Assembly (NCBI GenBank): GCA_030694935.1
Contig: JAUYUA010000013.1
Span: forward strand, 1 to 35,739
Reading direction: 5' to 3'
DNA: 35,739 nt
Source: Lutibacter sp.
GTDB lineage: Bacteria > Bacteroidota > Bacteroidia > Flavobacteriales > Flavobacteriaceae
The stretch's first letter is position 1; each line of letters begins with the position of its first letter. The notes under the pieces are model-generated. The model was not told the DNA's origin. It searched no databases and was given only the letters and a program-made list of their open reading frames with translations. The position numbers and the translations under genes are program-made. Positions 6,160 to 13,567 of the stretch are shown here, piece by piece.

Positions 6160-7455
6160 TTAGGGGGCCTTATTCGCCACCGCTTTCATTGCGATATCAA
6201 TCGCCTTTCTTACTTTATAGATATCTCTTTTGCTCATTGCGGTTCCTAAAAACCAAGCTTCAAATTGAGATGGAGGCAAAAACACGCCATGCTCCATCAT
6301 TTTCCAAAAGAATATTTTAAATTTATTGGTATCACTGGTGAGTGCCGTTTTAAAATCAACCACCGGTGTTTTTGTAAAAAATGGAGAAATCATGGATCCA
6401 AATCGGTTTACCTGCAAATCAATTCCGTTTTCTTTAGCAGCATTAAGTAAAGATCGCTCTAAAAAAAAAGCCGTTTTTTCAAAAGCTGCATACGGATTTT
6501 GTTTTTTCAATTCCGTTAAAGTCGCAATACCGCAAGCCATAGCAATTGGATTACCCGATAAAGTTCCTGCCTGATACATTTCTCCCAAAGGCGCTACCAT
6601 TTCCATAATTTCATTTCTGGCTCCATAAGCACCAACCGGAAAACCGCCGCCAACAACTTTTCCCAAACAAGTAATGTCGGCCTCTACACCCAACAATTCT
6701 TGAGCGCCACCAAATTTTGAACGAAACCCGGTCATCACTTCATCCATGATTAAAAGAACACCGCTTGCTTTGGTTAAATCTCTTAATTCTTCTATAAATT
6801 CTTTGGTCGGATTTACAACACCCATATTACCGGCTATTGGTTCTATAATTACAGCGGCAATATCATCATGCTTCGCTAAATGTTGTTCAACACTGTCAAT
6901 ATCATTATATACCGCAACCAGCGTATTTGCAACAGCTTCCGGCGGAACACCTTTACTTCCGGGAATGCTTAACGTTACCAAACCCGATCCGGCAGCAACC
7001 AACATATCATCTGCGTGTCCGTGATAACAGCCTGCAAATTTGATTATTTTATTTTTTCCTGTGAAAGCCCTGGCCAAACGTATGGCGCTAAAAACAGCCT
7101 CAGTTCCTGAACTTACAAAGCGCACTTTATCCATTCCAGGAAAAGCGTCACAAACAATTTTGGCCAATTTAATTTCTCCAACTGTTGAAGCGCCAAAAGT
7201 TGTTCCTTTTTTTAAGGCTTTTTTTACGGCTTTTTCAACTGTGCTGTTTCTGTGACCCAATATCATTGGCCCGTAAGACAAAACCAAATCGATGTATTCG
7301 TTTCCGTCAACGTCAATAATTTTGCTGCCTTTTGCCCTATCGATAAAAATAGGAACGCCGCCAACAGATTTAAAAGCCCTAACAGGGGAATTTACAGCTC
7401 CCACTAAATTCTTTTTGCCTTTTGTATATAATTCTAATGATTTTTCTAGTTTCAT
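6160..7455 (-). CDS. hemL: Glutamate-1-semialdehyde 2,1-aminomutase
   Basis: This PLP enzyme makes 5-aminolevulinate from glutamate-1-semialdehyde, the step after HemA. The 431-residue product has the early NSPVRAF motif, SSGTEAV (PLP phosphate contacts) and the PLP lysine at Lys266 in CLGKVVGGGFPVGAYG. Length is normal. The gene follows hemB after 111 bases that contain a short repeat. The last codons run into the inverted-repeat element downstream, but the protein end (VANKAP) looks unremarkable. Confidence 0.97.
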   Translation of the reverse strand: MKLEKSLELYTKGKKNLVGAVNSPVRAFKSVGGVPIFIDRAKGSKIIDVDGNEYIDLVLSYGPMILGHRNSTVEKAVKKALKKGTTFGASTVGEIKLAKIVCDAFPGMDKVRFVSSGTEAVFSAIRLARAFTGKNKIIKFAGCYHGHADDMLVAAGSGLVTLSIPGSKGVPPEAVANTLVAVYNDIDSVEQHLAKHDDIAAVIIEPIAGNMGVVNPTKEFIEELRDLTKASGVLLIMDEVMTGFRSKFGGAQELLGVEADITCLGKVVGGGFPVGAYGARNEIMEMVAPLGEMYQAGTLSGNPIAMACGIATLTELKKQNPYAAFEKTAFFLERSLLNAAKENGIDLQVNRFGSMISPFFTKTPVVDFKTALTSDTNKFKIFFWKMMEHGVFLPPSQFEAWFLGTAMSKRDIYKVRKAIDIAMKAVANKAP

Positions 7456-7481
7456 TTTCTTTTATTTTTGTGTAATCGTGT

Positions 7482-7505
7482 CCCTTCGACTTCGCTCAGG
7501 GTGAC
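7482..7505. repeat. Short flavobacterial intergenic repeat
   Basis: The minus strand reads GTCACCCTGAGCGAAGTCGA followed by AGGG, with CCCT/AGGG ends that can pair. I recognise it as a very common short intergenic repeat in Bacteroidota; its genome copy number was not checked. It sits between hemB and hemL. Confidence 0.65.
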
Positions 7506-7566
7506 CTTTTGTTCATTTGTAAAATTAAATCTAAACGATTCAACAACTCAACGGTTAAACTTGTTT

Positions 7567-8532
7567 TTAACGTTTCAATAATAATTTGGCAACATCTTTT
7601 GCAAAATAGGTAATAATAATATCGGCTCCTGCCCTTTTCATCGACAGCAAACTTTCCATCATCACCCGATCGCCATCAATCCAACCTTTTTCGGCAGCTG
7701 CTTTTATCATCGCATATTCACCGCTCACATTATAACAGGCAACCGGACGGTCGAAATTGTTTTTGACATCTCTTATGATATCCAAATAAGCCAAAGCCGG
7801 TTTTACCATTAAAATATCGGCACCTTCCTGATCGTCAAAAGTGGCTTCACGCAAGGCTTCATCTCTGTTTGACGAATCCATTTGGTAAGTTCTTCGGTCT
7901 CCAAAAGTTGGTGCAGAATCTGCAGCATCCCTAAACGGACCATAATATGCTGATGCGTATTTTACGGCATAAGACATTATTGGAAGATCGTAAAAACCGG
8001 TATTGTCTAAAGCCTCTCTAATGGTTGCAATCATACCATCCATCATTCCCGATGGCGCCACCATATCGGCTCCCGCTTTTGCATGGGAAATTACTTGTTT
8101 GGCAATGTTCAATAAAGTTGCATCGTTGTCAACATCATTATCGTGAATTACGCCACAATGGCCATGACTTGTATATTCACAAAAACAAACATCGGTTATG
8201 ACATATAAACTCGGATAATTTTTTTTGATGAAACGGATGGCATTTTGCATAATTCCGTTATCGTTCCAGGTTTCAGAACCAATTTCATCTTTTTTTGATG
8301 GAATTCCAAAAAGCAATACTGCAGGAATATCCAATGCAACCACTTCATCCAGTTCTTTTGAAATTCTGTCTAATGACCATCTTTTGATTCCTGGCATGGA
8401 AACAATTTCGGTTTCAATATTTGTCCCTTCTTCAATAAACAAAGGATAAATTAACTCGTCAACGGTAAGTCTGTTTTCCCTTACCAAACGACGAATATTT
8501 TCAGTTTTACGAAGGCGTCTTGTTCTATTCAT
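7567..8532 (-). CDS. hemB: Porphobilinogen synthase (5-aminolevulinate dehydratase)
   Basis: This enzyme condenses two 5-aminolevulinate molecules to porphobilinogen. The metal site [14 protein letters not shown] is the cysteine-rich, zinc-dependent form. The two active-site lysines are in SYAVKYAS and [10 protein letters not shown]. The ATG at 8532 gives [15 protein letters not shown], the usual N-terminus; a TTG two codons earlier is unlikely. The start overlaps the hemD stop by 8 bases, which suggests translational coupling. The product is about 321 residues, normal for the family. Confidence 0.97.
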
Positions 8533-9193
8533 AATCAAAATATTGATTTACAGATTCTATTACATTTTCAACTGTTGGCTCATCGGCCACAAATACATTT
8601 TCAAAATCGTCGATGGCTTCGGAAGCGGTTGTGTTTCCAATACAAAAAGCCACACTTTGGGTGTCGGTATTTTTTGATAAATAACTTTTTACTGATGACG
8701 GACTAAAAAATAAAATGCCATCATACGTGTTTTTTATTTTTACGGGCTTGAAATTGGTGGTGTAAACTTCAATTTCATTCACCTTAATATTATTCTCGGT
8801 TAACATTTCCGGCAGTTCATTGCGTCGCAAGTTTCCACAGAAAAAATGAACCTCATCAATGTCTTTATTCAGTAAGATTTCGTCGGCTAATTCCTCAGCT
8901 GAGTGTGCTATTACTGTTACTTTAACGTTTTTCTCCTCTAAAAATTGCGCCGTTTTATCGCCAACGCAATACACGTTTTCAAATTGTAATTCGCTGGCTG
9001 TAAACTGGTTAAAAATGCCTAAAATAGCATTTTTACTTGTGAAAATGGCGTTTTTGATTGGATTTTGTAGTTTAATGGAAGTATTGAAAGAAATCTCAAT
9101 CAATTCAATTTCATCTACAATAAAATGATGCAGCAGTTCCTTTTGCGATTGGGAAAGCTTTTTGGTGGACAGGATTTTTTTTTTTGTGTTCAT
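8525..9193 (-). CDS. hemD: Uroporphyrinogen-III synthase
   Basis: HemD cyclises hydroxymethylbilane and inverts ring D. The family is poorly conserved, but the 222-residue two-lobed pattern fits, as do the motifs IFTSKNAI and [15 protein letters not shown] (the usual FTSxxAV and FxSPSGV sites) and the late [10 protein letters not shown]. Position between hemC and hemB supports this. The ATG follows the hemC stop directly, with no gap. Codons 3-7 contain a run of eleven A (9175-9185), a possible slippage site right at the start of the gene. Confidence 0.92.
9175..9185 (-). repeat. Homopolymer A11 near the 5' end of hemD
   Basis: Eleven T on the plus strand are eleven A on the coding strand, inside codons 3-7 (MNTKKKI). 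Any gain or loss of one base would shift hemD out of frame almost at once. Confidence 0.9.
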
Positions 9194-10114
9194 CTATTTC
9201 TTCATTTCAGCTTTTATGCTTTCCATTAATTTTTTTCCGCCGTTATTTAATACTTCTTCAGCACAAATTTTACCCAAATTTTTCCATTCACTTAATGGAA
9301 CTGTTTTTTCGACTTCCACTTTTTCTGAACCGTCAATGGCAATTAAAATTCCTTTAAAATAGATTTTATCGCCTGTAATTTTTGCATTTCCACCGATTGG
9401 CGCGGTACAACCGCCTTCCAATGTTTTCATAAACTGACGCTCAACAGCAACGGCCATTTCAGTTTCTTTATGGTTTATTTGAACGCAAATATCAAGGATT
9501 TCAGTGTCGGCTTTTAAAGCGGTGACCATGATGGCGCCTTGTGCTGGTGCTGGAATCATCCAATCCAACATCACATGATTTTTTGGAAGCAAGTCGATGC
9601 GTTCCAAGCCGGCAGCGGCAAAAATAGCCCCATTCCAGTTGTTGTCAATCAATTTTTGCAAACGCGTATTTACGTTCCCTCTTAAATCGGTAATGTTATG
9701 TTTCGGATATTTATGCAACCATTGCGCGGTTCGTCGTAAACTTCCAGTGGCAATAGTAGCGCTTTCCTGATTTTTTAAAAAATCTTTATTATTTTTTAGT
9801 ACCAAAACATCGCTGATATTGGCTCTTTCCAAAACGGCAGCCTGAGCGATTTTTTCATGAAAATCGGTTGGAACATCTTTTAAAGAGTGAACTGCAATAT
9901 CAATTTCTCCCCGAAGCATCGCATTATCCAGCGTTTTAGTAAACAACCCAAAACCGCCTATTTGGTGTAATGGCTTGTCCAAAACCTCATCGCCGGTTGA
10001 CGTAATTTCAATAATTTGAGCTTGGTATCCTAAATTTTCAAGTTGTGATTTAACTAAATTTGCTTGCCATAATGCGAGTTGACTTGCTCTTGTCCCTATT
10101 TTAATCATTCTCAT
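9194..10114 (-). CDS. hemC: Hydroxymethylbilane synthase (porphobilinogen deaminase)
   Basis: HemC links four porphobilinogens into hydroxymethylbilane. The product (306 residues) starts MRMIKIGTRASQLALWQA, where GTRxSxLAxxQ is the family signature. It carries HSLKDVP, TGSLRRTAQ and the cofactor-attachment cysteine Cys236 in LEGGCTAPIG. Two ATG codons are possible (10114 and 10108); both overlap the end of hemA (stop at 10101-10103). The hemD ATG follows its stop immediately, so hemA, hemC, hemD and hemB form one tight coupled block. Confidence 0.97.
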   Translation of the reverse strand: MRMIKIGTRASQLALWQANLVKSQLENLGYQAQIIEITSTGDEVLDKPLHQIGGFGLFTKTLDNAMLRGEIDIAVHSLKDVPTDFHEKIAQAAVLERANISDVLVLKNNKDFLKNQESATIATGSLRRTAQWLHKYPKHNITDLRGNVNTRLQKLIDNNWNGAIFAAAGLERIDLLPKNHVMLDWMIPAPAQGAIMVTALKADTEILDICVQINHKETEMAVAVERQFMKTLEGGCTAPIGGNAKITGDKIYFKGILIAIDGSEKVEVEKTVPLSEWKNLGKICAEEVLNNGGKKLMESIKAEMKK

Positions 10115-11366
10115 TTAAAATCAACTCTTTAATATTAAACATTTTACTGATAACGCTTATGCTTAAATCAACCGAAGTTTCTTCGTCTTTTAAATGTTTA
10201 ACAAATTGTGTGGTAATTTTTTGAATCATGCGGTTTGTCAAAAACTCGGCGTGTTCAATATTAAAATCTTTTAACCTTCTTGATTGAAAATCAATTTCAT
10301 CGTGTTGAATTGCCTGAAGTGATTCTTTTAAAGCATTAACGGCAGGCACATATTTACGTTGTTCAATCCAATCGTTAAATTCACCCTTATATTTTTGAAT
10401 AATGGCTTCAGCGGCAGGAATTTCATTTTTACGGGTTTCTATGGCTAGATCCGTAATTTTTGAAAGCTCATCAACATTTACCAAAGTCACGCCTTCAATA
10501 TTTTTTACAGAAATATCAACATTTTCTGGCATTGACAAATCTAAAATCAATATTTGTTTGCCGTTTTTTAAATGGGCTTGGCTTATGGTATGAGTATCCG
10601 CTCCTGTTGAAACAATTAAAATATTGGTATCTTCAATTTCTTTTGTTAAGTCGGCATAATTTTTTACGGTTATTTCAGGGTGTTCCGCTTTAAATTCCAA
10701 AGCTCTTTCGTGAGTTCTGTTAATGAGCGTCACATTTTTGTTTGAAGTATATCCCAATACATTTTTACAGGTATTTTTTCCTATATCACCCAAACCGAAA
10801 ATAAGAATTTTTTGCTCATTATAATTGCGAATATTTTCCATAATATAATGAATGGCAGCGTAAGCTACAGAAGTTGTGCCCGAACTTAATTGCGTATTGT
10901 TCTTAACATCTTTGCTGGCCTGTAAAACCAAATTCATCAATCTTTCTAAATAAGCATTGGTGGTTCCTGCAATTTTAGCTTGCTTAAACGACTCTTTTAA
11001 CTGGCTTACAATTTCGTAATCGCCTAAAATTTGGCTGTCTAAACCAGTACCTGTTTTAAACAAATGACGAACGGCATCTTTATTTTTATAAACATAAGAA
11101 ACTTTGATAAAATCTTCAACAGTTCCATTTGAATATTTGATGATTAAACTAATCAATTCAAAAGGATGTTTGGCAAAACCGGTTATTTCAGTTCTATTGC
11201 AAGTCGATAAAATAAAAATCCCGTCGATTCCTGATTCTTTCGCCTCCTTCAACAATAGTTTTTGATTTTCTTTTGTGATACTGAAAGCGCCTCGCACTTT
11301 TACATCAGCTTTTTTATAACTTAACCCTACACAGTATAATTTTGTAGGCATGTTTTCTAAACTCAT
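10101..11366 (-). CDS. hemA: Glutamyl-tRNA reductase
   Basis: HemA commits charged glutamyl-tRNA to tetrapyrrole synthesis. The nucleophile is Cys56 in LSTCNRTE. The family motifs GLDSQILGDYEIVSQLKES and the NADPH-binding ILIFGLGDIG follow. An open frame extends back to 11420, but that would start upstream of the predicted promoter and add residues not usual for the family. The ATG at 11366 (MSLENMPTKLYCVGLSYKKA), or the one at 11351, is preferred. It is the first gene of the leftward haem series and is divergent from the AraC regulator. The promoter is overlapped by a repeated 14-mer, so regulation at this first step is likely. Confidence 0.95.
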   Translation of the reverse strand: MSLENMPTKLYCVGLSYKKADVKVRGAFSITKENQKLLLKEAKESGIDGIFILSTCNRTEITGFAKHPFELISLIIKYSNGTVEDFIKVSYVYKNKDAVRHLFKTGTGLDSQILGDYEIVSQLKESFKQAKIAGTTNAYLERLMNLVLQASKDVKNNTQLSSGTTSVAYAAIHYIMENIRNYNEQKILIFGLGDIGKNTCKNVLGYTSNKNVTLINRTHERALEFKAEHPEITVKNYADLTKEIEDTNILIVSTGADTHTISQAHLKNGKQILILDLSMPENVDISVKNIEGVTLVNVDELSKITDLAIETRKNEIPAAEAIIQKYKGEFNDWIEQRKYVPAVNALKESLQAIQHDEIDFQSRRLKDFNIEHAEFLTNRMIQKITTQFVKHLKDEETSVDLSISVISKMFNIKELILNEND

Positions 11367-11388
11367 AAAAATAGTGTTATCAATAAGT

Positions 11389-11402
11389 ATCGTCAAAAGT
11401 AC
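11389..11402. promoter_or_regulatory. Operator-like repeat 1 (ATCGTCAAAAGTAC), overlaps hemA -7 box
   Basis: This is the first copy of the 14-mer ATCGnnAAAAGTAC. On the minus strand it contains TACTTTTG, the predicted -7 element of hemA, so a protein bound here would block or position RNA polymerase. Confidence 0.6.
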
Positions 11403-11421
11403 GAAGTTATAGTTGTACAAA
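11394..11421 (-). promoter_or_regulatory. Predicted hemA promoter (TTTG-N16-TACTTTTG)
   Basis: On the minus strand the -7 box TACTTTTG (11394-11401) and an upstream TTTG (11418-11421) are separated by 16 bases, shorter than the usual spacing of about 19. Transcription would begin near 11389 and leave a leader of roughly 20-40 bases before the hemA ATG. Confidence 0.6.
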
Positions 11422-11423
11422 AC

Positions 11424-11437
11424 ATCGATAAAAGTAC
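11424..11437. promoter_or_regulatory. Operator-like repeat 2 (ATCGATAAAAGTAC)
   Basis: Second copy of the 14-mer, 35 bases from the first and just upstream of the hemA -33 region, in the same orientation. Confidence 0.6.
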
Positions 11438-11444
11438 TATTATT

Positions 11445-11459
11445 ATCGACATAAGTTAC
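11445..11459. promoter_or_regulatory. Operator-like repeat 3 (degenerate)
   Basis: ATCGACATAAGTTAC is a diverged copy with one inserted base. It starts 21 bases from copy 2, two helical turns, a spacing often seen for direct half-sites of AraC-family regulators. Confidence 0.45.
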
Positions 11460-11507
11460 CGTACCTAATTTATAATGTTTCTAAATAAGGTAATTTTGAA
11501 TAAAAGT

Positions 11508-11521
11508 ATGATAATTGTCAG
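11508..11521. promoter_or_regulatory. Crp/Fnr-like site, imperfect
   Basis: ATGAT-AATT-GTCAG has both TGAY and RTCA half-sites with a 4-base spacer but unequal ends. It lies between the hemA and araC promoters, about 35 bases upstream of a better site at 11543. Confidence 0.35.
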
Positions 11522-11542
11522 CAAAATATGGCGTCAAAAACT

Positions 11543-11556
11543 ATGACTTTTATCAT
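11543..11556. promoter_or_regulatory. Crp/Fnr-type box before the araC-like gene
   Basis: ATGAC-TTTT-ATCAT. Its centre (11549.5) is 56.5 bases before the last base of the predicted araC -7 box. That places it near -61.5 if transcription begins about five bases after that box, a classical activator position. Confidence 0.5.
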
Positions 11557-11578
11557 CTTTTAATTACTAAGATGTTTT

Positions 11579-11606
11579 TTTGAATGAATTTTTATTCCTA
11601 TTTTTG
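11579..11606 (+). promoter_or_regulatory. Predicted araC-hemH promoter (TTTG-N16-TATTTTTG)
   Basis: The -7 box TATTTTTG (11599-11606) has TTTG 16 bases upstream (11579-11582), the same spacing as in the divergent hemA promoter. The start codon is 35 bases further on. Confidence 0.6.
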
Positions 11607-11640
11607 CCTTAATTTTGAAATTAATTCGTAAAAATATCTT

Positions 11641-12534
11641 ATGAAATCCAATTTAGAGAATTATAAAAATATCGACAAAAGTACTCAGTTTATTTTTAGT
11701 GAAACGGATACATTTAAAGTTTTTAATTTAAATAACCTGTCAGACAACGATGAGTTTTTTAAACTTTCCTTAACTAAAAACTACATTCAAATTTATTTTT
11801 GCTGCAACAACGAGTGTAAAGTTGCCTTTAAATTTGAACATTGCGTCATGCCTTTAACTGAAGGAAATTCAAGTATGGTTTATTTCAAGGATGAGAAAAT
11901 GGATTTGCTTTTTAAGTTGCCGCCAAATTCTGAGATGCTTGCAATTTTAATTTCTATTGAACATTTTCATTCCTTATTTTCCATTAACGGAACTGTTTTA
12001 TTTAACTACAGCAGCTTAAAGGGAGAAAACCCAATTATTGAACCCAAAGAAACGAATTCTTCTATAAAATTAATTTTAAACCAATTAAAGACCAAACAAA
12101 CAAACGATTTGCTCAGGCCAATTTATATCAAAGGAAAAGTATACGAATTATTGAGCTATTATTTCAGTCAGTCCTCAGAAAATGAAACGGAAAATTGTCC
12201 TTACATTTCTAATGAAGAGACTGCCAGCAAAATAAAACAGGCAAAACAGCTGATTATCACAAACATGAACAATCCGCCTTCACTTGCCGATTTGGCAAAA
12301 GAAGTTGGACTTAACATCAAAAAATTAAAAACTGCCTTTAAAGAAATTTATGGCGTTCCGGTTTTTACTTTTTTGCTGAACCATAAAATGGAATTGGCAA
12401 AAACATTGCTGCAGGAACAACAAATGAATGTGAACGAAATAGCCTCTCATCTGGGATATAGCGCTTCCAGCCATTTTATTGCCGCGTTTAAAAGAAAATT
12501 CGGCATTACACCAAAACAATTTTCAAAATCATAA
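11641..12534 (+). CDS. AraC-family transcriptional regulator of the haem cluster
   Basis: The 297-residue protein has an unrecognised N-terminal sensor half and a C-terminal AraC DNA-binding domain (about residues 200-295) with two helix-turn-helix units: SLADLAKEVGLNIKKLKTAFKEI and the typical ending VNEIASHLGYSASSHFIAAFKRKFG. It is divergent from hemA and 13 bases upstream of hemH, so haem synthesis is the obvious target. The sensor half has a cysteine cluster (Cys54, Cys55, Cys59, Cys68 next to His67) and a Cys186-Pro187 dipeptide like haem regulatory motifs. Haem or redox sensing is therefore plausible but inferred. A copy of the 14-mer found at the hemA promoter lies at codons 11-15, possibly for autoregulation. 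Confidence 0.92.
   Translation: MKSNLENYKNIDKSTQFIFSETDTFKVFNLNNLSDNDEFFKLSLTKNYIQIYFCCNNECKVAFKFEHCVMPLTEGNSSMVYFKDEKMDLLFKLPPNSEMLAILISIEHFHSLFSINGTVLFNYSSLKGENPIIEPKETNSSIKLILNQLKTKQTNDLLRPIYIKGKVYELLSYYFSQSSENETENCPYISNEETASKIKQAKQLIITNMNNPPSLADLAKEVGLNIKKLKTAFKEIYGVPVFTFLLNHKMELAKTLLQEQQMNVNEIASHLGYSASSHFIAAFKRKFGITPKQFSKS
11671..11684. promoter_or_regulatory. Operator-like repeat 4 inside the araC-like gene
   Basis: ATCGACAAAAGTAC matches copies 1 and 2 at all twelve fixed positions and lies 30 bases into the regulator gene. A downstream copy could serve autorepression or looping with the hemA-side copies. Confidence 0.5.
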
Positions 12535-12547
12535 TGATACCACAACA

Positions 12548-13567
12548 ATGAAAGGAGCTTTATTAGTAAATTTAGGATCGCCAAACAGCACTTCAACAAA
12601 AGATGTCAGAAATTATTTAGATGAATTTTTAATGGATGAACGGGTCATTGACGTGCCTTATTTACTCCGTGCATTTTTAGTGAAAGGCATTATTTTAAAT
12701 ACCCGTCCAAAAAAATCGGCGGCGGCCTATAAAAAAATATGGTGGGATGAAGGCTCTCCTTTAATTGTGCTTTCGAAAAGATTGCACAAAAAAGTACAGG
12801 AAAACACCAATATTCCTGTTGAATTGGCCATGCGATACGGAAATCCGTCCATGAAAAGCGGCATTCAAAAATTGGCCGAGCAAGGCGTTGATGAAATTTT
12901 ACTTATTCCGCTTTATCCGCAATTCGCCATGGCAACCACAGAAACCATTGAAGTTTTGGCAAAAGAAATTATAAAAAAACACTTTCCAAATATAAAACTG
13001 AACATGGTTCCCGCGTTTTACAACCAACCCGATTATGTTGAAGCCTTAAGCGACAGCATTCAAACTTCTCTTGAAGAATTAAAACCTGAACACCTACTTT
13101 TTTCTTATCACGGCGTTCCGGAAAGGCACATTAAAAAATCGGATGTCACAAAATCGCATTGCACAATCGACGGCAGTTGCTGCAATACGCCATCAGCAGC
13201 CCACGAATTTTGCTACCGACACCAGTGCTATGAAACCACCAAAAATGTTGCCGCAAAATTAAATTTAGAAGAAGGAAGTTACAGCACTTCCTTTCAATCT
13301 CGTTTGGGACGTGACCCTTGGCTGCAGCCTTATACCGATAAAACCATAGACAACTTTGCCACAAATGGCTTAAAAAAATTGGCGGTGGTTACGCCTGCAT
13401 TTGTTTCTGATTGCTTAGAAACATTGGAAGAAATTGGCATGGAAGCAAAACATTCATTTAAAGAAAATGGAGGTGAGGATTTTAATATGATTCCTTGCTT
13501 AAATGATGATGACAAATGGGTAAAAACATTGTCTGATTGGATTAAAGATTGGGCGGAAACAAAATAA
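12548..13567 (+). CDS. hemH: Ferrochelatase
   Basis: HemH inserts ferrous iron into protoporphyrin IX. The ATG at 12548 gives MKGALLVNLGSPNS, the normal ferrochelatase N-terminus; the open frame further upstream only overlaps the AraC gene. The catalytic histidine is in LFSYHGVPERH. The 339-residue product contains the conserved QSRLGRDPWLQPYTD. Unusual is a cysteine-rich stretch, C-x5-CC-x9-C-x4-C, after the catalytic loop. It could hold an internal [2Fe-2S] cluster, as reported for some bacterial ferrochelatases, or be a structural feature of the clade. The gene is co-transcribed with the AraC regulator (13-base gap). Confidence 0.96.
   Translation: MKGALLVNLGSPNSTSTKDVRNYLDEFLMDERVIDVPYLLRAFLVKGIILNTRPKKSAAAYKKIWWDEGSPLIVLSKRLHKKVQENTNIPVELAMRYGNPSMKSGIQKLAEQGVDEILLIPLYPQFAMATTETIEVLAKEIIKKHFPNIKLNMVPAFYNQPDYVEALSDSIQTSLEELKPEHLLFSYHGVPERHIKKSDVTKSHCTIDGSCCNTPSAAHEFCYRHQCYETTKNVAAKLNLEEGSYSTSFQSRLGRDPWLQPYTDKTIDNFATNGLKKLAVVTPAFVSDCLETLEEIGMEAKHSFKENGGEDFNMIPCLNDDDKWVKTLSDWIKDWAETK

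Follow-up and report, generated by a model that had tools for sequence, protein, structure and literature searches.

The window analysed here, a 35,739 bp stretch of a Lutibacter sp. contig, contains a gene for an AraC-family regulator (referred to below as araC) between hemA on the opposite strand and hemH, and most of the near relatives of its genome that carry a genus name are named Lutibacter. The hemA-strand gene run continues behind hemA (6160–10114, − strand). The genes and control features, in order along the window, are as follows:

6160–7455, − strand: hemL (NCBIfam match)
7567–8538, − strand: hemB (NCBIfam match)
8525–9193, − strand: probable hemD, assigned by position only, without an NCBIfam match at 1e-20
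9194–10114, − strand: hemC (NCBIfam match)
10101–11366, − strand: hemA, glutamyl-tRNA reductase (TIGR01035 above cut-off; Pfam GlutR_N)
~11389, − strand: predicted hemA transcription start, from the position of the −7 box
11389–11402, + strand: site 1, an exact copy of the 14-mer that covers the hemA −7 box; an additional operator-like copy specific to the clade
11394–11401, − strand: hemA −7 box, TACTTTTG on the hemA strand (CAAAnnTA, 23 bp from s2)
11417–11437, + strand: s2, predicted promoter-proximal operator half-site, containing the 14-mer at 11424; ~−28 to −48 of hemA
11438–11458, + strand: s2', weaker direct repeat of s2, with ATCG at 11445; ~−49 to −69 of hemA
11469–11485, no strand: palindrome TTTATAATGTTTCTAAA (family form TTTAGA-N5-TCTAAA)
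11599–11606, + strand: likely araC −7 box TATTTTTG (main group: TAnnTTTG 85–90 bp before s3 in 70/99 loci)
11641–12534, + strand: araC-family regulator gene (Pfam HTH_18, 1.2e-20), with a predicted cupin-like N-domain and AraC DNA-binding domain
11664–11684, + strand: s3, predicted lone operator half-site inside araC codons 8–15, containing the 14-mer at 11671
12548–13567, + strand: hemH, ferrochelatase, directly after araC (Pfam PF00762, 1.2e-103; TIGR00109 above cut-off)

The initial annotation of this region described a 14-mer repeated in one orientation at 11389, 11424 and 11671, with a degenerate copy at 11445, and a sequence search bears this description out. The exact sequence ATCGnnAAAAGTAC occurs three times on the + strand within a span of 296 bp, and the degenerate copy lies 21 bp from that at 11424. 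The first copy does cover the hemA −7 box, as had been proposed (CAAAAGTA at 11394–11401, which reads TACTTTTG on the hemA strand). A dinucleotide model predicts 0.005 exact copies for the window, and with up to two mismatches allowed there are 11 matches compared to 4.45 expected, a number reached in none of 100 shuffles. Across the 3.22-Mb genome the only exact matches are the same three (0.46 expected under the dinucleotide model), such that the 14-mer is confined to hemA/araC and not scattered. Its conservation in relatives, which the annotation had named as a check, divides in two: the strict 14-mer is a local form of the Lutibacter clade, and the older, longer element to which it belongs (~21 bp, consensus AAAAA-r-y-r-w-CGCTnAArGt) is family-wide. 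The members of this element in the window are 11417–11437 and 11664–11684.

The AraC protein was matched at E ≤1e-20 in 142 of 149 Flavobacteriaceae genomes, weakly in one of them (G023, E 6.4e-25). A set of 152 loci was examined, including that of the window: the AraC search supplied 30, another 22 came from the 23 close loci, and 100 were retrieved by position. The set does not represent 12 of the 142 matched genomes. In 143 of the 152 loci hemA is divergent and upstream of araC. Two loci cut by contig ends (L060 and L149) were left out of all site counts, four (L069, L105, L130 and L146) were left out of the site profile, and the 23 Lutibacter-type loci were left out of both the profile and the 127-locus counts. 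It should be noted that at 60% protein identity the set collapses to 17 representatives.

Outside of the Lutibacter group, the starts of the araC genes carry the family-wide element. While s3 was placed with extra weight on its CG, a test based on codons is independent of that placement. The third base of codon 11 is C in 120 of 121 araC genes, whereas the codon preferences of those genes predict 20.4 (8 of 129 loci lacked an alignment at codon 11 and do not enter the count), making this the most biased of 294 codon columns even as the encoded residue varies between Ile, Val, Asn, Thr and Asp. Codon 13 encodes a widely variable residue and has A as its third base in at least 116 of 121 genes. 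In the set thinned to below 60% identity, 14 of 15 representatives have C as the last base of codon 11. The bias at codons 11 and 13 indicates that s3 is conserved at the DNA level, and by this comparison the intragenic site is among the best conserved parts of the system. In a few loci (e.g., L037, L103, L146 and L152) the first ATG is downstream of s3 and the element is part of the leader; in L146 it is out of the araC frame. Additionally, the protein alignments of araC in L152 (G030), L037 (G060) and L130 (G122) cross stop codons in frame close to the 5' end; the likely reason is a true start downstream of the operator and not a broken gene.

A profile built solely from the intragenic araC copies was run over the hemA–araC gap, where it identified a corresponding site, s2. 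On the + strand a score ≥8 was reached in 116 of 120 other loci and in 10 of 2400 shuffles, and a score ≥15 in 106 of 120 loci and 0 of 2400 shuffles (7 of the 127 loci had no hemA in reach and were left out); the opposite strand reached ≥8 in 8 of 120. The s2 score fell below 8 in 5 of 127 loci. The motif is A-rich and the control region AT-rich, conditions under which chance or low-complexity repeats might arise, but this explanation is refuted by the three exact copies in the window, against 0.005 expected, and by the comparison of loci with shuffles, and its probability is considered negligible.

The position of s2 relative to the promoter is nearly invariant. In 117 of 127 loci the −7 box CAAAnnTA begins exactly 23 bp hemA-ward of s2, and in four more the distance is 24 bp; the 23-bp geometry is present in 27 of 28 loci of the Lutibacter clade, and it is exact in 11 of 16 in the set of 17 representatives. 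A published study gives the flavobacterial −7 consensus as TAnnTTTG at −12 to −5 (PMC9723704), which would place s2 at ~−28 to −48, where a −33 box is expected. The four-letter core of a second copy, s2', occurs exactly 21 bp beyond s2 in 106 of 116 loci (and in 27 of 28 loci of the Lutibacter clade), compared to never more than 3 of 116 loci at any other offset from 15 to 59. The window shares the geometry of the family (−7 box 11394, s2 11417, s2' 11438). Direct half-sites two helical turns apart beside a promoter are the arrangement expected of an AraC-type operator, and the comparison favours the annotation's suggestion of direct-repeat sites for an AraC-family protein, the 21-bp tandem repeat in particular appearing AraC-like.

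The distance between s2 and s3 is 164–169 bp in 99 of 122 loci (5 of the 127 loci, with s2 scores <8, were left out) and 167 bp in 45 of them, or ~16 turns of 10.5 bp. Variant spacings near 135, 147 and 155 bp have almost the same helical phase; for 16 variant spacings and a period of 10.5 bp, R is 0.57 and the Rayleigh p is ~0.005 with kinship ignored, and, again ignoring kinship, the fit improves slightly at a period of 11.0 bp and worsens at 10.0 bp. The sequence between the two sites has a pairwise identity of ~0.50 compared to ~0.33 expected. Only four of the 17 representatives, all with a scored s2, have a spacing of 166–167 bp, so the loci at 167 bp form one related cluster. Because the intervening sequence is non-random and independent representatives are few, the phase is suggestive only. 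The fixed distance between s2 and s3, set against a wandering araC start, is the stronger argument: measured from the first in-frame ATG of araC, or from the start of its open frame, the position of s3 in the same 99 loci ranges from −22 to +119, and the hemH start varies relative to araC by hundreds of bp. Further, a copy of s3 in G127 has kept a distance of exactly 167 bp from s2, with the araC start now ~1.5 kb further on. Two open reading frames are found between this copy and araC (L251 2000–3740).

These distances bear on two alternative roles for s3. It could be an RNA element for araC translation, its likeness to the hemA sites due to a shared protein/RNA motif, and its location overlapping or adjoining the araC start in nearly all loci would suit such a role. 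An RNA element is difficult to reconcile with a distance to the araC ATG that ranges from −22 to +119 when the distance to s2 is almost fixed, with hemA copies upstream of the predicted hemA transcript, with the variable residue and near-constant third base of codon 13, or with a search of 11200–11900 that returned no Rfam match at E ≤1, and it is very improbable. The second alternative retains the same sites and regulator and dispenses with the loop, s2/s2' serving activation and s3 acting as a roadblock or in simple autorepression. Such a role is in keeping with the position of s3 downstream of the likely araC −7 box (the 70 of 99 main-group loci noted above) and with G122, in which hemA has a site while araC and s3 are elsewhere. 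A roadblock, however, requires no fixed distance from hemA, yet the distance holds at 164–169 bp in 99 of 122 loci, the 16 variant spacings tend to share a helical phase (p ~0.005, kinship ignored) and the s3 copy of G127 has stayed 167 bp from s2 despite the displaced araC. Control of this kind, without a loop, is a plausible alternative to which we assign somewhat less than an even chance.

The Lutibacter clade departs from the main group in several respects. All 22 complete loci whose AraC is close (68–96% identical; L010 and L039–L059) have copies with up to two mismatches to the 14-mer at the three corresponding places, and sites 1 and 2 are always 35 bp apart. The CG just upstream of the −7 box occurs in 28 of 28 loci of the clade (the 23 close loci and L011–L015) compared to 4 of 99 main-group loci, suggesting that site 1 is probably a later, clade-specific addition; its overlap with the −7 box would probably suit direct repression. 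The spacing of s2 and s3 in the clade is 242–261 bp and out of phase with the main group. Covariation of the site base that distinguishes clades (CGA or CGC) with recognition-helix residues was also considered and gave no clean signal; as the signal follows phylogeny, the comparison is uninformative.

Genomes with an altered gene order offer a view of the sites apart from the divergent pair. In four genomes hemA was found apart from araC. The remote hemA of G122 is preceded by a 26.2-bit site with the same geometry, those of G055 and G025 have weaker sites (17.0 and 10.8), and that of G089 has none, though its araC retains its own site; the araC of G055 (L105) has no recognisable s3. Two genomes possess hemA without a clear araC ortholog: in G023 no site precedes hemA, and in G035 the best match, scoring 5.4 at ~155 bp upstream and on the other strand from s2, is not convincing. 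The six other genomes without an araC ortholog gave no matches to hemA, hemB and hemH.

The araC gene is kept in G147, G062, G048 and G008 (completeness 73, 84, 82 and 99%, respectively) where no matches to hemA, hemB and hemH were found, and these are probable haem auxotrophs, judging from gene content, that have kept the regulator. In G147, G062 and G048 araC faces a gene for a TonB receptor, followed by one for an HmuY-family protein (PF14064), with s2 in between and at the usual distance from a −7-like box (one mismatch in G147); in G008 the contig breaks off. Sites thus appear at the promoters of haem synthesis or haem uptake genes despite changes in gene order, as would be expected for a regulator of haem supply.

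The same genomes weigh on the identity of the binding protein. A different conserved regulator might bind these sites with AraC itself just a target, an idea encouraged by the second conserved motif, the palindrome, which suggests another regulator in the region. It fits less well with a 21-bp tandem direct repeat as in araI1–I2, with the lack of a convincing hemA site in G023 and G035, where araC has no clear ortholog, and with araC and the site jointly facing haem-uptake genes, and is regarded as unlikely.

The palindrome TTTAGA-N5-TCTAAA is exact in 97 of 150 loci and has one mismatch in 35 of 150. In the main group it is located ~50 bp before s3, in or near the araC leader, and it is a possible site of a second regulator. 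It resembles the rhizobial Irr box. A role as an iron box was considered and rejected: of two exact matches in the window's own genome (L162 and L163, the latter seen as sequence only), L162 has no iron gene recognisable by eye among its frames. Genome-wide, the palindrome was not enriched in the window's genome, with 35 places compared to 83 for a backward control. In a search of four genomes with a longer form of the palindrome, a second exact copy was found in two, G014 and G071, and both extra copies (L243 and L247) adjoin a gene of 429 codons in which a CxxCH haem-binding motif was recognised by eye, a hint of a link between respiration and haem supply.

A composite pattern (−7 box, 14–16 bp, s2), searched without regard to genes, gave 146 matches in 124 of the 149 genomes. 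Of these, 113 are at the araC locus (including one in G078 that is s3) and 33 elsewhere; the s2 of the window itself, with CGAT, is not captured by the pattern. As a backward control gives 27, chance accounts for most of the 33. Two are the hemA genes apart from araC in G122 and G055, and six were fetched by place, chosen partly for a strong-looking s2. Of the latter, G015:C333 precedes a TonB receptor–HmuY pair and G128:C6 precedes a TonB receptor, while those of G097 and G139 are inside genes and G015:C30 is at a gene edge. The sixth, G058:C11 (L250 2186–2226), scores 24.9, strong for an s2-type site, and precedes a WD40-like (PD40) gene. The s2-type promoters seen before TonB receptors are at L248 1922–1962 and L249 2076–2116, one with HmuY (PF14064) next. 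No matches to hemA, hemB, hemH or araC were found in G015 (84% complete).

In the window's own genome the profile alone gave 24 matches at E ≤10, with s3 the best (0.04) and s2 the fifth (0.28); two of the 22 others (L175 and L176) were viewed for a wider regulon and had nothing haem-related nearby. In 15 of 20 chosen genomes the top profile match fell at the locus of araC or hemA, and in the other five (G047, G062, G008, G023 and G035) it lay elsewhere; two such matches elsewhere that were viewed (L190 and L207) are both inside genes. Profile matches on their own are weak and less specific than those of the composite pattern. Beyond the family, 15 genomes of a class-wide sample of 159 contained an AraC relative at E ≤1e-25, and four of these belong to the Flavobacteriaceae. 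Nine loci of the remaining 11 were scanned (all but L237 and L238): L227 has an s3-like site scoring 24.6 where araC begins and, 198 bp from it, an upstream site scoring 19.6, and the other eight have no such site pair, L229 having a single match of 20.2 on the other strand.

The AraC protein has the double helix-turn-helix of the family, with matches to PF12833 (HTH_18, 1.2e-20) and PF00165 (HTH_AraC, 3.1e-13) above cut-off and to the E. coli AraC domain (2k9s) by both sequence and fold. An AlphaFold model of moderate confidence (pLDDT 67.7; alignment of 19 close sequences) predicts a beta-barrel at 16–137 and DNA-binding helices at 192–287, and Foldseek matches of the model include AraC-family proteins and cupins, among them the BgaR sensor domain; a separate, cupin-like N-terminal sensor domain is therefore predicted at that level of confidence. 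Residues His110, Lys166, Glu169, Cys186 and Pro187 are the same in all 129 sequences compared. The best Foldseek matches are regulators of the ToxT/Rns/CsvR type, which are alike in having a cupin-like N-domain and an AraC DNA-binding domain but share only 11–16% identity and superpose poorly over the whole chain (TM ~0.3), and the model gives no reason to assume their ligands for this protein.

The closest parallel in layout is the arabinose system. The araC gene of E. coli is divergent from its PBAD target, and the flavobacterial regulator gene is likewise divergent from its putative target. In both systems two direct half-sites are just upstream of and overlap the −35/−33 region. According to PMC7408454, the PBAD pair is centred at −52.5 with a lone third half-site 211 bp away, compared to ~−48 and ~167 bp for the flavobacterial pair and lone half-site. 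Unlike PBAD, the flavobacterial system would control haem supply and not sugar use, its promoter-proximal half-site is the stronger, its lone half-site is usually inside coding sequence, it serves a Bacteroidota −7/−33 promoter, and its loop is proposed from sequence layout. Haem synthesis is regulated by Irr in rhizobia. HrrSA/ChrSA are reported to have that role in corynebacteria (PMC9491836). These systems are similar in coordinating haem synthesis or homeostasis with the state of haem or iron, and differ from the flavobacterial AraC in being Fur-family or two-component proteins. In Flavobacterium psychrophilum, haem-synthesis enzymes increase under oxygen limitation (PMC9723704), which fits a regulated haem supply; that text names no regulator and contains neither AraC nor hemA. 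Searches of open-licence PMC papers turned up no description of this regulator, nor of any AraC-family protein regulating haem synthesis in the Flavobacteriaceae.

Collectively, it is likely that the repeats serve an AraC-family regulator of haem supply as operator half-sites, a tandem s2/s2' pair with a lone remote s3 in the manner of araI1–I2/araO2. The sites, their orientation and spacing, the promoter geometry, the conservation at the DNA level and the association with hemA or haem-uptake genes are all supported by sequence. The annotation's proposal that this AraC protein controls hemA and its own gene is favoured by the comparative data, as a site precedes hemA in 116 of 120 other divergent-pair loci, hemA apart from araC keeps a site (clear in one of four genomes and weak in two), the two genomes without a clear araC ortholog have no convincing hemA site, and araC with its site also faces haem-uptake genes. 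We infer that this protein is the binder, that its effect on hemA is activation, that s3 provides repression through a loop, and that it responds to haem or to a precursor of haem as its signal.

As proposed, the AraC-family protein encoded between hemA and hemH, itself conserved across the Flavobacteriaceae, would bind these half-sites. A dimer on s2/s2' (~−28 to −69), in place of a −33 box, would be positioned to activate hemA and the genes behind it. The lone s3 in the araC frame, ~16 turns away in most genera, would serve as the remote grip for a repressing DNA loop, and a loop between s2 and s3 would shut both hemA and araC. With a tandem pair and a remote lone half-site, the layout would work like that of E. 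coli araI1–I2/araO2, and in the Lutibacter clade the extra copy on the hemA −7 box would probably add direct repression. The complete proposal, an AraC-type loop switch for flavobacterial haem supply, with a remote operator in the first codons of the regulator, that governs synthesis in species with the pathway and TonB receptor–HmuY uptake in those that have lost it, and senses haem or a precursor, is given about an even chance.

The analysis provides a testable regulator for which operators, promoter geometry and likely targets are defined across a bacterial family. Site s3 is a clear case of a regulatory site kept within coding sequence against free codon choice, and for the promoters of the Bacteroidota, the position of s2 suggests how an activator may replace the −33 box.
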